Source: Bacteroidales bacterium (lineage in GTDB: Bacteria > Bacteroidota > Bacteroidia > Bacteroidales > ML635J-15). Taken from it: DNA of 64,000 nucleotides. How positions within the stretch are numbered: position 1 is the first letter of the stretch; each line of letters opens with the position of its first letter. Location: positions 18,811 through 82,810 of the forward strand of contig JAFGVU010000101.1 in NCBI GenBank assembly GCA_016937855.1. The letters run 5' to 3'. The notes under the pieces are model-generated. The model was not told the DNA's origin. It saw only the letters and a list, made by a program, of their open reading frames with translations, and did not search any database. Of this stretch, positions 4,752 to 24,663 are shown piece after piece. The translations under genes and the position numbers were made by a program.

Positions 4752-7700
4752 ATGAAAAAAATTATAATCACATTGGTCTTATATCTACTTTGTTCTAATT
4801 CATATTCTCAGGAGAAACAAAACGTTTATATTGAAGATAAGGAACAAAAGAATACAGGTCTAAACTATATTAAATCAAATTGTAGGATCGAGAGATTTAA
4901 TAGAACTATTGATACAGTTGTAATCAGTAAGACAGTTGAAAAATCAGGAGAGACTTTTTACGTTTATGCCGATGCTTATACTCCTCAGATTTTGGTTGAA
5001 GATATTTTAGCTTCTGGTTGTATAAGCATTTCTAATGTTGTTTATAATGGTTCAGAGGAAGCGATTGGATATTTCGATGGAGCACAAGACATAATAGGAA
5101 TGAATCGAGGAATTATTTTATCTACTGGGAAGGCAATTAATTCCGCAGGTGAAAACACAGTATCATATACAAGCGACAATCTCAATTCTCCAGGAAATGC
5201 CGCACTTGAAACAATAATATCTGAGGGAACAAACGATGCTGCTGTTTTAAAATTTAATTTTATTCCAGCTTCAAATATGGTTAAACTTGAGTTTGTTTTT
5301 GCAAGTGAAGAATATCCTGAATTTATTGAAATGCCTTATGCTGATCCTTTTGCAATTTTTATTTCCGGAGGACCCGAACAATATGATAATGTGAATATTG
5401 CCTTAATACCAGAAACTCAAACTAATATATCATCTATAACTATAAATTCAAATGTGAATAGTCAATATTACATCAGTAATTGGAATCCCGCAACTCTTAA
5501 TACTGTATTTGATGGTCTTACAACAACACTCACTGCTAAATCGAATGTTACTCCAGGCGCCGAATACACTTTAAAAATTGCTATTGCTGACGGTGCGGAT
5601 TGGTCATATAATTCGGCAGTTTTTTTAAAAGCAGGAAGCTTCACTAATTTTGTTGATGATATGCCTTTTAGTGTTAACACAGAGTTAGTTGATGTGCCAA
5701 ACGCATCAACAGGTTCATTTACTCTGTACAGAACAGATGTTTTGCCAACAAATCAACCTATCGACATATTATTATCTTTTTTCGGATCGGCACAGATGGG
5801 TGTTGATTATTCAATGATTCCTAATATTGTTACAATCCCACCAAATACCGATTCAATTAACGTAAATTTTGAAACATTTCACTATTGTGGTCCAGATGAA
5901 AAAAATATAATTATTAGTTTTCAAGACAATTGCAATTTCAATCTTGAAAACACGAATTTCGATAAAGAGTTCAGAATCATTCCAGTAGGACTGGAAGTTG
6001 ATTTCTCAGTTATTAGTCTTCCTGATTGTGGTATAGGGAACGGTGTTGTTCAGGCATTAGTTGTTAATGGTACTGAACCATATACTTATGTTTGGGAAAA
6101 TCCCGAATATGGCACAGAGCATATAGCCTCTAACCTAATGGCCGGAGCAATTTCTGTCACAGTTTCTGAAACAACAGGTTGCTCAGCCACGAGCAGTTTT
6201 ATGCTTGATAGTAATTATGATTTTATTTTATCTGCAGAAGAGCTATCTCCTGTAACATGCAATAGTGGTAATGATGGAATAATTAAAATCATTTTCAACG
6301 GCGAAATGCCGTATAATCTATTTTGGTCAAACGGATCGGATGTAGGAGAACTTAATGACATCAGTGTTAATGAGTTAAATCTTGAGAATTTAGTTGCTGG
6401 TAATTATGGTTTTACAGCAACAGATGCCAATAATTGTATGAAGTATTTTTCTATTGAAGTAACCCAGCCAGAAGCAATCATTTGTCCAGAAGATCTTTTA
6501 TTGGAGATAAATGCCGAAGCATTTACTTTTAATGGATACATTCAACCGGAGGGGGGAATATATTATGTTGATGGAGTTGTTCAAACAGAGTTCTTGCCTG
6601 CCATGTATGGTCTTGGTGAGTATAATGTGTTTTATGAATATATAGATGCACAGTTATGCTCAAACACCTGCAACTTTAATCTAATTGTTTATGAAGATGA
6701 GAGTTTACCAGACATAACAACTCTTGCTGCAAATGAAATAGGGTATTTTCATGCTATAGCATCAGGTGTCGTTACAAATAATAACGGATTCACAGTTATT
6801 AACAGAGGTTTTGTTTGGAGCACGACCGAATATCCAACAATATTAGAAAATACTGGTCATATTAGTCAAGCTGGTTCTTTAGGTGAATTTCAAAATCAAC
6901 TTGTTCTTTTAAACCCTTCAACCTCATATTTTGTCAGAGCATACGCTATTAACATTAACGGAATTTCATATGGACAAAGCATCTGTTTTACAACCGAACC
7001 ATCTCCAGAGGAAATAATATTAATGCAGAATGGAGTCGTGTCAACTTGCAACGCCGCATTCTATGATTCAGGGGGTGAATTGTCGAATTACTCGGATAAT
7101 TCAAATTATGTCTTAACTATCGAGCCTAGTGAACCAAATTCAAAAATATGCTTGAAATTTGGAATGCTTGAAATTGAAAATATATTTGATATATTATCTA
7201 TTTATGATGGACCTTCTATAGAAAGTCCACTAATTGGTCAGTATATAAGTACAGATAATCTCATTACAGTGCGTTCAAGTCACCCTTCAGGTTCTTTGAC
7301 AATAAAATTTGTGTCTGATGGAACATTAACAAAAGAAGGTTGGCAGGCACTTATTAGCTGTGAAACGACAATTCCTTGCCAAAACTACTCAACACAAATT
7401 GTTTCTAGTCTTCCCGAGCCTTTTTCGACAGACTCTCTATGGATTAATCTATGCCTTGGGCAGGAGCTAGCAATGTCAGCAGAAGTTGATTTTGTTGAAA
7501 ATGGACTATATTATACTCAGTCCGAAGCAGGTCTAAATACTAAATGGATAGTATCTTCTCAAAACACATATAATCTTTATCCATCGCAGGGGTTAAGCAA
7601 TTTTAGTCATGTGTTTGATAGCACTGGCTTGTTTTTTGTGTTTTTGATTAACACAGACGAAAGAGGTTGTATCTCTTCAATTCCTGAAGCATACAAAGTG

Positions 7701-20792: not shown

Positions 20793-21902
20793 ATGAATAG
20801 TGAAGTATTTTATAATATTAGCAAAATTGTAGAACGAGACAGTAAGGCAACAACTTATAAGTTTGCTCTAATGCGTGGAGTTATAGATATTATTCAGGAC
20901 AATTCTCCTTATATTATATTTGAAGAAAATCGTGTTCATATACCAACTGGACTTCTTATTGAAAAATGGTTGATGTATTATTATCCGATTTTAAAATCAC
21001 AAACTTCAATTCCTCAAATCAATGGTAACACGAATTTAGCTTTTAGCAATCAGTTTTACAAATTAATTTTGGATTATGAAGCTCGGGGCGGTTTTTCTGC
21101 ATTTTATAACGACCTAAAGAATAAAGGAATACCTGAAGATTTGCAAGGTGAGTTTTTTGAACTTGCGAAAAAGTTAAGAGATACTATTACTAAAATGCCG
21201 ATGAAATATATTGGGCGTTCCATAACTAATGACTTCTATTCCATTTTTAATTATAAAAACCAAACAACTAGAAGAAAATCGACAATAGACATTGAAGACT
21301 TAATCAATGAATTTGGAACATTTTCAATCCCAGACGAATATTACGAGGCGTTTAGGATTTTAGGTAGTTTCATTAGTGGACGAGATTCAATTCTTTTTAA
21401 ATGGGCTGAATTTTCTGTGAAAGCTTCGGGCAACAATCTCTCTGTGCACAAAGTTCTTAATGAGGTTTTAAAGAGCCCAATTACATTGAGAGATATCAAA
21501 GAATCGAAAAAACTATATAAAGAGATTCTTCAAAAAACTGGAGATGTTTATTGCGTTTGGACTGGTAGAAAAATTTCAAAATATGATATTGACCATTTGA
21601 TTCCGTTCTCCGTTTGGAAAAATAATGATCTATGGAATTTACTTCCATCAGATTCAAAAACTAACAACCAAAAGAGAGACAAAATACCAACACCAGAAGT
21701 TATTGAAAGACAAAAAAGTTTAATTGTCGATTATTGGGGCATTATATATGAACACCAATCAAAGCGTTTCAGAAAAGAAATTCAAGTTGCACTATTAGGA
21801 AATTATTCTTTTGATTCTTGGAAAAATAGTGGTATTTTGCAATTACAAAATAGTTGCAACTATCTAATTGAAAACAGAGGTTTTGAAGGATGGAAAATTT
21901 AA
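20793..21902 (+). CDS. HNH endonuclease domain protein
   Basis: YCVWTGRKISKYDIDHLIPFSVWKNNDLWNLLPSDSKTNNQKRDK (H-N-N motif); uncharacterised N-terminal domain. Confidence 0.85.
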   Translation: MNSEVFYNISKIVERDSKATTYKFALMRGVIDIIQDNSPYIIFEENRVHIPTGLLIEKWLMYYYPILKSQTSIPQINGNTNLAFSNQFYKLILDYEARGGFSAFYNDLKNKGIPEDLQGEFFELAKKLRDTITKMPMKYIGRSITNDFYSIFNYKNQTTRRKSTIDIEDLINEFGTFSIPDEYYEAFRILGSFISGRDSILFKWAEFSVKASGNNLSVHKVLNEVLKSPITLRDIKESKKLYKEILQKTGDVYCVWTGRKISKYDIDHLIPFSVWKNNDLWNLLPSDSKTNNQKRDKIPTPEVIERQKSLIVDYWGIIYEHQSKRFRKEIQVALLGNYSFDSWKNSGILQLQNSCNYLIENRGFEGWKI

Positions 21903-22756
21903 ATCTTAACCCAAACAGTCATTTAACAGCCAAGGAACGAGAAACACTTTCTTTCCCAGCCAAAATTGTATTTAATAGGAATGCTTTAGTTGGTGATGTT
22001 TTGGATTTTGGTTGTGGGTTTGGCAGTGATGTAAAATTACTAAAAGAAAAAGGCATTAATATTGTGGGATACGACAAACAATATTTTCCAGAATATCCAA
22101 CCAAAAAGTTTGATACAATAATTTGCTTTTATGTTTTGAATGTGCTTTTGCCTAAAGAGCAAGCTATCGTCTTAATGGAATTGTCTCAACTCATCAAACC
22201 AACAGGCAAAGTATATATTGCTGTGAGAAGAGATTTGAAGTATGAAGGATTTAGGGTTCATAAAATACATCAGAGGAAAACATACCAATGCAATGTCATT
22301 TTAAATTCAAGATCTTTTTTTAGAAATGAGAATTGTGAGATTTATGAGTATCAGCATTATAATCAATTAAATAGCATTGAGAAATCCGATTGCCCATTTT
22401 GTAATCCTAGTTCAGATAGAGAATTATTAGTTGAATCTGCTACTGCTTATGCTATTTATGATAAATTTCCCGTTAATGATGGACATGCTTTAATTATACC
22501 TAAAAGGCATTGTGCAGACTATTTTGATTTGACATTCAAAGAGCAAGCTGCTTGTATTTTTATGTTGAATAGAGTAAAAGAAATTCTTGCAGCGAGATTT
22601 AATCCTGATGGATTTAATGTCGGAATTAATGTGGGAAATAAAGCCGGACAGACAATTTCTCATGTTCACATTCACTTAATACCAAGATATAATGGGGATG
22701 TTGAGGAACCTCTAGGAGGTGTGAGAGGTGTAATTCCTAGTAAGCAAAAATATTGA
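21890..22756 (+). CDS. Bifunctional class I SAM-dependent methyltransferase fused to HIT domain
   Basis: VLDFGCGFGSD motif I and FDTIICFYVLNVL; C-terminal CPFC..NDGHALIIPKRH..GQTISHVHIHLIPRY HIT triad; overlaps the HNH ORF by 13 bp. Confidence 0.88.
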   Translation: MENLNLNPNSHLTAKERETLSFPAKIVFNRNALVGDVLDFGCGFGSDVKLLKEKGINIVGYDKQYFPEYPTKKFDTIICFYVLNVLLPKEQAIVLMELSQLIKPTGKVYIAVRRDLKYEGFRVHKIHQRKTYQCNVILNSRSFFRNENCEIYEYQHYNQLNSIEKSDCPFCNPSSDRELLVESATAYAIYDKFPVNDGHALIIPKRHCADYFDLTFKEQAACIFMLNRVKEILAARFNPDGFNVGINVGNKAGQTISHVHIHLIPRYNGDVEEPLGGVRGVIPSKQKY

Positions 22757-23206: not shown

Positions 23207-23416
23207 TTAATTTAAAGACAATAATTTTCGCAGATTGGTTGCCTTTGTTTCTAAAATGAAAAGCTTAAAATTCAAAAGACCCTATTTAATTATGTAGATT
23301 CAATAAATAGACTGTCAAGCGAAAATTGATTTTGTTTTTTGACAAGTCCTTTATAACGTCCTTTATTTGTTCGTATAAAGCGATTTTTTTTCTTCGAAGC
23401 GCCGCGGGATGGAAAT

Positions 23417-23595: not shown

Positions 23596-23769
23596 TGAAT
23601 TTTTATAAAAAATGATTTAACCTACATTAAGTGATAGTACTTCGTAATAGATTTGCTAATGCATAATACGGGTTAAATAGGGTGTCCCAGTGTCGAAGTA
23701 AGGAAACAATAATTTTCGCAGATTGGTTGCCTTTGTTTCTAAAATGAAAAGCTTAAAATTCAAAAGACC

Positions 23770-24663
23770 CTATTTGACAATCTTATTTAAAGGAAAAAGC
23801 AATTTGTTTTTATTTAGAATCGGATAATACTCGGGAATAGCTCCAAATCCTTTGTAAAACCTTGCAACTCCTTCTATTGATGATCCTTCAAAATCTAATA
23901 TTGTTGGAGTATTGCTGTTTTGCCTTATTATTTCGGCTAATATCAAATACATAGCAAAATTTTGCTTCCCTAGTTCAGATGAGGATGGCATAAGATAGTA
24001 AATCCTGTTTTTCCATCTTAAAATCAATACCGACGCAATTATTTGGTTTGTTTGTTCATCATTTACCGACCAAATTTCAGCAAAATGCTCATTTTTAATC
24101 CTTTGCAGTAAAGTATTTAATGCGGACAAAAAGCCTTTTGGCGGAGTAAAATTCAAATTGTTTTCAGTAAATGTCTTAAAATTATCAAAATCATTGTCTT
24201 TAAAAACCGTCTGCTCTATCTCTTTTGCTTTTTTGATGTTGCGGTTACAGTTTTTCGAGAAATTATTACTAATCTCCTCGAAACTTGATTGTAATTCTAA
24301 AATAAAATTCGGTTTTAGATTGTTAGTTTGGTGGTTATTGCCGGAGTTTAACTGAAGACGGTAAAATCTATAAGGAATAAAATCAAGAAATGTTTCTAAA
24401 AGATCTGAGCTGATAATATTTTGCGAAAATAATCCTAATTGTTGCGAAAGGTAAGGTTGAGTTAAATATTTTAATCCGGATTTTTTCTTTACAGGTAAGG
24501 GCATTACATGTTCATAATTGTTGGTAACAATAGCCTCCCATTTAGGCGACATGCAATCGAGATACCACGACATAGCATATATTGTCCCGTTTAAAGAATT
24601 TAGAATAGTTTTATCCCATAAATCTTTGTCAATCTGATTATGTTTTAAGTGCTTAATATCCAT
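23770..24663 (-). CDS. GNAT/FemAB-like acetyltransferase-fold protein
   Basis: FSKNCNRNIKKAKEIEQTVF...LDFEGSSIEGVARFYKGFGAIPEYYP, FemAB-like pattern. Confidence 0.6.
   Translation of the reverse strand: MDIKHLKHNQIDKDLWDKTILNSLNGTIYAMSWYLDCMSPKWEAIVTNNYEHVMPLPVKKKSGLKYLTQPYLSQQLGLFSQNIISSDLLETFLDFIPYRFYRLQLNSGNNHQTNNLKPNFILELQSSFEEISNNFSKNCNRNIKKAKEIEQTVFKDNDFDNFKTFTENNLNFTPPKGFLSALNTLLQRIKNEHFAEIWSVNDEQTNQIIASVLILRWKNRIYYLMPSSSELGKQNFAMYLILAEIIRQNSNTPTILDFEGSSIEGVARFYKGFGAIPEYYPILNKNKLLFPLNKIVK

Follow-up and report, generated by a model that had tools for sequence, protein, structure and literature searches.

Two overlapping genes of the window (the whole stretch of 64,000 nucleotides that was analysed), one encoding an HNH nuclease and the other a fusion of a methyltransferase with a HIT domain, form a cassette that, by its sequence, is genuine and conserved, is related to known phosphorothioation defence and, within the reach of our searches, has not been described. 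The cassette is spread over several Bacteroidota families. The explanation that we favor, and to which we would assign roughly an even chance, is that this is a restriction-type defence cassette, an offshoot of the Ssp/Dnd phosphorothioation loci, in which an HNH effector is associated with the methyltransferase-HIT protein as its marking or licensing partner. A defence role, directed against phages or plasmids, is suggested by the genomic context of the cassette.

The gene pair and its two proteins

The two open reading frames and their 13-bp overlap lie exactly where the original prediction had placed them (Table 1), and its calls of an HNH, a methyltransferase and a HIT domain were recovered in Pfam as HNH_4, Methyltransf_23 and HIT. 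The same 13-nt overlap is kept in several other loci (L001-L008, L011, L083 and L087), and the genes overlap or are closely spaced in the others. Comparisons with closely related cassettes gave dN/dS ratios of approximately 0.05-0.09 for the HNH gene and 0.05-0.10 for the fusion gene, values indicative of strong purifying selection on both, which implies that both proteins are maintained. Together with the 35 homologous pairs described below, this selection excludes that the pair is due to chance.

Table 1. Features of the cassette and of its upstream remnant, in window positions
Feature	Position	Strand	Characteristics
sspB (DUF4007) 5' remnant, 32 codons	20689..20787	+	MITENAENTINTFSVCDSFKCRQLWLKKEDVN*; 20 of the 28 first residues identical to the intact L001 SspB
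HNH nuclease gene, 369 aa, type A of the family	20793..21902	+	ATG start, ORF; Pfam HNH_4
N-terminal domain of the HNH protein	20793..21480	+	No Pfam match; bears the TYKFALMRGVIDIIQ motif
HNH core, residues 254-299	21552..21689	+	C254, D267, H268, W281-N282-L283, N291, K294; invariant columns (D267 = D or E)
Overlap of the two genes, 13 nt	21890..21902	+	ATG of the fusion within the end of the HNH gene
Methyltransferase-HIT fusion gene, 288 aa	21890..22756	+	ATG start, ORF; Pfam
Class I SAM methyltransferase domain, residues 11-159	21920..22366	+	Distant TIGR04096 relative
HIT domain, residues 168-270	22391..22699	+	C168/C171/H207; histidine triad H258/H260/H262

The first protein can be assigned to the HNH endonucleases by its fold match to HNH_4 (E = 6e-9, residues 260-299, 36 bits against a cut-off of 22) and by its conserved D-H ... 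N residues, H268 and N291 being invariant among 15 aligned HNH proteins and position 267 being D or E. The closest HNH core by sequence is that of Cas9, and Cas9 HNH domains are also the closest solved relatives of this core. Nevertheless, a Cas9 relative was discarded as an identification, because the window protein has no RuvC domain, no guide RNA and a different N-terminal domain. This N-terminal region had been described as uncharacterized, and indeed its approximately 200 amino acids matched no Pfam domain. When profiles were compared with hhalign, its TYKFALMRGVIDIIQ motif lined up with PHKPxLLLxVID, a motif of sulfur-binding domains, and the same pairing was obtained with type B, in both cases below significance: type A gave E = 0.09 and a probability of 0.6%, type B E = 0.03 and 1.6%. 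Such values lend no significant support to a sulfur-binding domain in this part of the protein. The AlphaFold2 model of the HNH protein is poor (mean pLDDT = 55.7), and a Foldseek search with this model returned nothing below E = 0.3. Some HNH_4 proteins of 457-466 aa (L176, L177, L178, L181 and L182) bear an N-terminal helix-turn-helix-like extension (MGKAGQALRQILDSYNISQSQLA...). One short match to the HNH was found in phage records, and in viral contigs the matches numbered only 2 and 3, all of them distant and partial. Matches so few and so distant, partial or short do not point to a gene family of phages.

In the second protein, the Pfam matches of the methyltransferase domain are of the Methyltransf_11/12/23/25 type (for Methyltransf_23, E = 8e-11 over residues 30-113 of the fusion), motif I reads DFGCGFG, and approximately 20 residues are invariant across 56 sequences. 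Neither of the DNA-methyltransferase motifs that were sought, [DNS]PP[YFW] of the amino-methyltransferases and PCQ of the C5 enzymes, is present in this domain, the motif IV region of which reads CFYVLNVL. The domain is distantly related to TIGR04096, a putative DNA phosphorothioation-associated methyltransferase, but this match (E = 4e-14) covers residues 11-86 only instead of the full length, its 52 bits are about one third of the curated cut-off of 150, and the 478-position TIGR04096 model lacks a HIT domain. A true TIGR04096 member is located near SspA and an HNH gene in L182. On a Chroococcidiopsis plasmid (L034, positions 5935-7429), a 172-aa TIGR04096-like methyltransferase gene directly precedes a gene of the PAPS-reductase family.

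The HIT domain is clearly recognized (E = 2e-22, residues 175-268 of the fusion, 80 bits against a cut-off of 21.5), and its complete triad, with the catalytic middle histidine, is that of the HIT hydrolases and transferases. Among solved structures, it is closest to HIT proteins and Ap4A phosphorylases/FHIT. The AlphaFold model of the fusion (pLDDT = 70.7) did no more than confirm a small-molecule-type methyltransferase fold and a HIT/FHIT fold. The HIT domain also resembles the HIT proteins of Thoeris-like loci (ThsC), as it does the Ap4A phosphorylases, but an assignment to Thoeris was discarded since the window domain is fused to a methyltransferase and has no TIR partner.

Pairing across genomes and exchange of the nuclease

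The two genes had been proposed to form a coupled unit, a claim on which their co-occurrence in other genomes bears directly. A search for the fusion in GTDB genomes retrieved 22 loci. In 21 of these, tblastn placed a gene of the HNH family immediately upstream, the sole exception being a cyanobacterial contig. The HNH gene followed by the fusion on one strand was found in 35 locus records, mostly from Bacteroidota and in many genomic contexts, among which Algoriphagus boritolerans is probably counted twice (L015 and L082). The genes of these pairs overlap, abut or are separated by at most 5 nt, with a single wider gap of 51 nt (L097). In a sample of 396 Bacteroidota genomes, the methyltransferase domain was present in 17 genomes, the HNH in 27 and both in 16 (1.2 expected), a count that is biased towards paired HNHs because the HNH search model was made from the HNH genes beside the fusion. 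The coupled unit thus withstood this examination, with 35 pairs and 16 of the 17 genomes. In addition, there are loci (L024, L026, L097, L104 and L106) in which a nuclease of the HNH_4 family and another kind of class I methyltransferase make up a single protein. Since the pairing recurs by two routes, a functional link between the HNH and the methyltransferase is supported.

Of 194 cyanobacterial genomes, 22 carry the fusion on the chromosome as a gene standing alone, and its methyltransferase domain is almost invariant there. As it is solitary in Cyanobacteria, without an adjacent HNH gene in the loci examined, the fusion must have some role of its own. The middle HIT histidine is retained in nearly all of the HNH-paired fusions (exceptions L022 and L089) but another residue takes its place in 13 of 18 fetched cyanobacterial loci, where the fusion has no adjacent HNH (hand tally). 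That this histidine is kept mainly in the paired copies suggests that the HNH-paired fusion has its own function. The solitary cyanobacterial fusions that lost the catalytic histidine and conserve an invariant methyltransferase are those of L155, L157, L159, L161, L162, L164-L168 and L170-L172.

The nuclease is less constant than its partner. HNH types A, to which the window belongs, and B are approximately 20% identical over their whole length, and the fusion partners of both types share 53-83% identity with the window fusion. On the fusion-protein tree, the label of HNH type changes 7 times, at least 5 of these changes being forced by well-supported branches. At what is apparently the same site, after atpA-atpG-like genes, three loci (from two Algoriphagus species and G111) respectively carry types B, A and B. 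In L092, the fusion is preceded by a different nuclease, of the HNH_2 family, whose N-terminus matches the solved DNA sulfur-binding domain SBDHga1 (E = 2e-7). Because the HNH types swap while the fusion stays, the nuclease is the exchangeable part of the cassette and the fusion its constant part. For the same reason, the target of the fusion is probably something general (a widespread mark, a group on the backbone or at a DNA end, or a nucleotide adduct) and not a private recognition sequence that it would share with a single nuclease.

Kinship with phosphorothioation loci

SspABCD carries out single-strand DNA phosphorothioation and has SspE or SspFGH as its restriction part; SspD is the sulfur-inserting enzyme, which is PAPS-reductase-like. 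The homologies indicate that the HNH family and, distantly, the methyltransferase domain belong to the gene families of the Ssp/Dnd phosphorothioation loci, and the cassette is therefore not without kin. The original prediction that it matches no recognized type holds in the sense that the HNH/methyltransferase-HIT pair is named by none of the Pfam, NCBIfam and PADLOC models, but it had missed this kinship.

In Cyanobacteria, the same HNH family resides within Ssp operons, where it adjoins genes for SspA, SspB, SspC, SspD, SspF and SspG (PADLOC names), the order in L183 being SspB-SspC-HNH-SspD-SspF-SspG. SspA/B/C/D genes are present in 11 of the 16 fetched cyanobacterial HNH loci. Of 194 cyanobacterial genomes, 26 have DUF4007 (SspB), among them 10 of the 20 that bear the HNH (2.7 expected, p = 3e-5). 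The HNH is at most 10 kb from DUF4007 in 7 of 20 cyanobacterial loci (hand-read distances), for which the expectation is approximately 6e-4 per locus and the chance approximately 3e-18. In the cyanobacterial Ssp operons of L183, L184, L185 and L187, SspC and SspD have an HNH_4 gene between them; L184 additionally contains SspA, a DGQHR-domain gene and BrxL. Among Bacteroidota, the HNH adjoins SspA and SspB in L099, and in L100 it has DndC/DndD-like genes on one side and DUF262 genes on the other.

A further connection is provided by the phosphorothioate-dependent SBD-HNH (McrA-like) enzymes, a family partly annotated as phosphorothioated-DNA-binding endonucleases. One of them fills the nuclease slot of L092 and another is a neighbour in L190, a Nostoc plasmid in which the SBD-HNH gene is divergent from a small gene and an HNH_4 gene. 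In contrast, the HNH of the window belongs to the HNH_4 (Cas9-like) kind and has no demonstrable sulfur-binding domain. According to the match coordinates, the SBD-HNH and HNH_4 families are also close together in other Nostocales plasmids.

Traces of SspB and SspC can be followed upstream of the cassette itself. In L021 and L096, the genes for SspB, SspC, the HNH and the fusion succeed each other in that order. SspC is full-length only in L021, shortened in L096 (673 aa) and broken in L001 (224 aa). The latter locus has an intact SspB (PADLOC SspB match at 3e-123), the SspC fragment, several other genes and then the HNH and the fusion, with PbeA downstream. In L002, L003, L004, L006 and L007, the HNH is preceded by 5' remnants of sspB of varied length, and the remnant of the window is among the shortest of its kind. 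It scored 95 in a six-frame ungapped scan with the first 28 residues of the L001 SspB, the next best score being 28. Since the L002 remnant runs, by eye, into the end of the gene that precedes the HNH in L001, a deletion between sspB and the HNH would explain these remnants. An insertion of the HNH by homing was rejected, as the intermediate represented by L001 and L002 points to such a deletion. SspB and SspC are absent from most Bacteroidota cassettes, and thus do not seem to be needed now; the window retains of them only the 32-codon SspB remnant, and no DUF4007 match was found in its genome.

With regard to SspD, neither an SspD match nor a match to DndC (TIGR03183) was found in the window genome. 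Among the cassette genomes tested, which included L021, L096 and L001, SspD was found in none except G111; G250 matches the SspD query and has an HNH without the fusion. A search for the whole PAPS-reductase family, positive in 13 of 14 controls, came back empty for the L096 and L001 genomes, and the L021 genome has a member of this family, of DndC length, on another contig. In the SspB-SspC-HNH-fusion loci, whose genomes gave no SspD match, the HNH is thus followed by the fusion, in the position that SspD has in Cyanobacteria. The cassette therefore differs from SspABCD by the methyltransferase-HIT fusion that follows the HNH and by the loss, in most cases, of SspB and SspC.

The wider neighbourhood gives a mixed picture of the association with defence that had been proposed. 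In the window, sugar-nucleotide genes lie upstream of the cassette and ordinary genes downstream, and no defence island was found in these surroundings. Nevertheless, defence genes do lie beside the cassette in relatives: Wadjet JetA/JetB in L005, L009 and L010, PbeA and a PDC-M11A candidate in L001, type IV restriction enzymes in L013 and L083, a Druantia-like gene in L012 and cytosine methyltransferases in L091 and L093. Downstream of the window cassette, a perfect 70-nt direct repeat (23218-23287 and 23706-23775) flanks approximately 420 nt without a clear gene. This repeat-flanked stretch is separate from the cassette and probably corresponds to a small mobile or repeat element.

Possible functions of the cassette

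Several scenarios may explain these observations. In the case of a restriction-type offshoot of the Ssp/Dnd loci, the HNH protein would be the DNA-cutting effector, whereas the fusion would protect self or separate self from foreign, and would take the place of SspD, which follows the HNH in the cyanobacterial loci. An exchange between methylation and phosphorothioation parts has precedents in related systems: in type 4 BREX, the methyltransferase is replaced by a PAPS reductase (PMC12839542), and some DndDE-like systems have cytosine methylases in place of phosphorothioation (PMC10853773). Passages of these two articles, on phosphorothioation and BREX nucleases, mention other HNH forms and not the HNH/methyltransferase-HIT pair, of which our literature searches retrieved no description. 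Since SspB is known for nicking (PMC9646914), one may speculate that a HIT chemistry on nucleotide adducts, combined with SspB nicking, would fit a step on the backbone or at a DNA end. A more specific proposal, namely that the fusion makes a new DNA modification (possibly of the backbone or of the DNA end) that replaces phosphorothioation in systems of the SspB/SspC type and whose presence or absence is read by the HNH partners, is put forward as rather improbable.

Alternatively, the cassette could resemble a toxin-antitoxin module, in which a self-harming HNH would be neutralized by the methyltransferase-HIT protein, either through modification of the protein or through removal or alteration of an activating nucleotide ligand. 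The overlap of the two genes would agree with such a module, as would the persistence of the cassette after the loss of the neighbouring SspB and SspC, which is typical of addictive modules, and the HNH proteins that stand beside a HIT protein alone (L030, L031, L032 and L102). Yet, nucleases that are approximately 20% identical, and in one case an HNH_2 protein, share the same fusion, which is hard to reconcile with a protein-protein antitoxin, and the HNH exists without the fusion in phosphorothioation loci. We thus consider the toxin-antitoxin scenario doubtful.

The adjacency of a nuclease and a methyltransferase also recalls the classical type II restriction-modification systems, with a sequence-specific HNH and its cognate DNA methyltransferase. 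Methyltransferase-HNH fusions do exist elsewhere, and the solitary cyanobacterial fusions resemble orphan methyltransferases. Nevertheless, the catalytic motif of the DNA methyltransferases is absent, the 160-aa methyltransferase core leaves no room for a target-recognition domain, the retention of the methyltransferase when the nuclease is exchanged speaks against a shared recognition sequence, and the HIT domain has no place in such systems. This type was consequently rejected as a classification of the cassette, and we regard it as quite unlikely. In a last scenario, the fusion would serve metabolism or RNA processing, and the HNH would lie beside it by accident or as a selfish element (for instance, a homing nuclease). 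This would suit the stand-alone presence of the fusion in Cyanobacteria with an almost invariant methyltransferase domain, but is very unlikely in view of the adjacency of both genes in 35 loci from many contexts, of the middle HIT histidine, kept in paired copies and lost in most of the cyanobacterial ones, and, for the homing variant, of the absence of an interrupted host gene.

If the cassette is indeed a restriction-type offshoot of the Ssp/Dnd loci, the enzyme that inserts sulfur would have given way, in phosphorothioation-type defence operons, to a methyltransferase fused with a nucleotide-hydrolase-type domain, and the result would be a compact, mobile, two-gene restriction unit. With two genes in 2 kb, it would offer a simple laboratory system for mixing nuclease and partner across natural exchanges, and would allow tests of the chemistries open to restriction systems beyond base methylation and sulfur.
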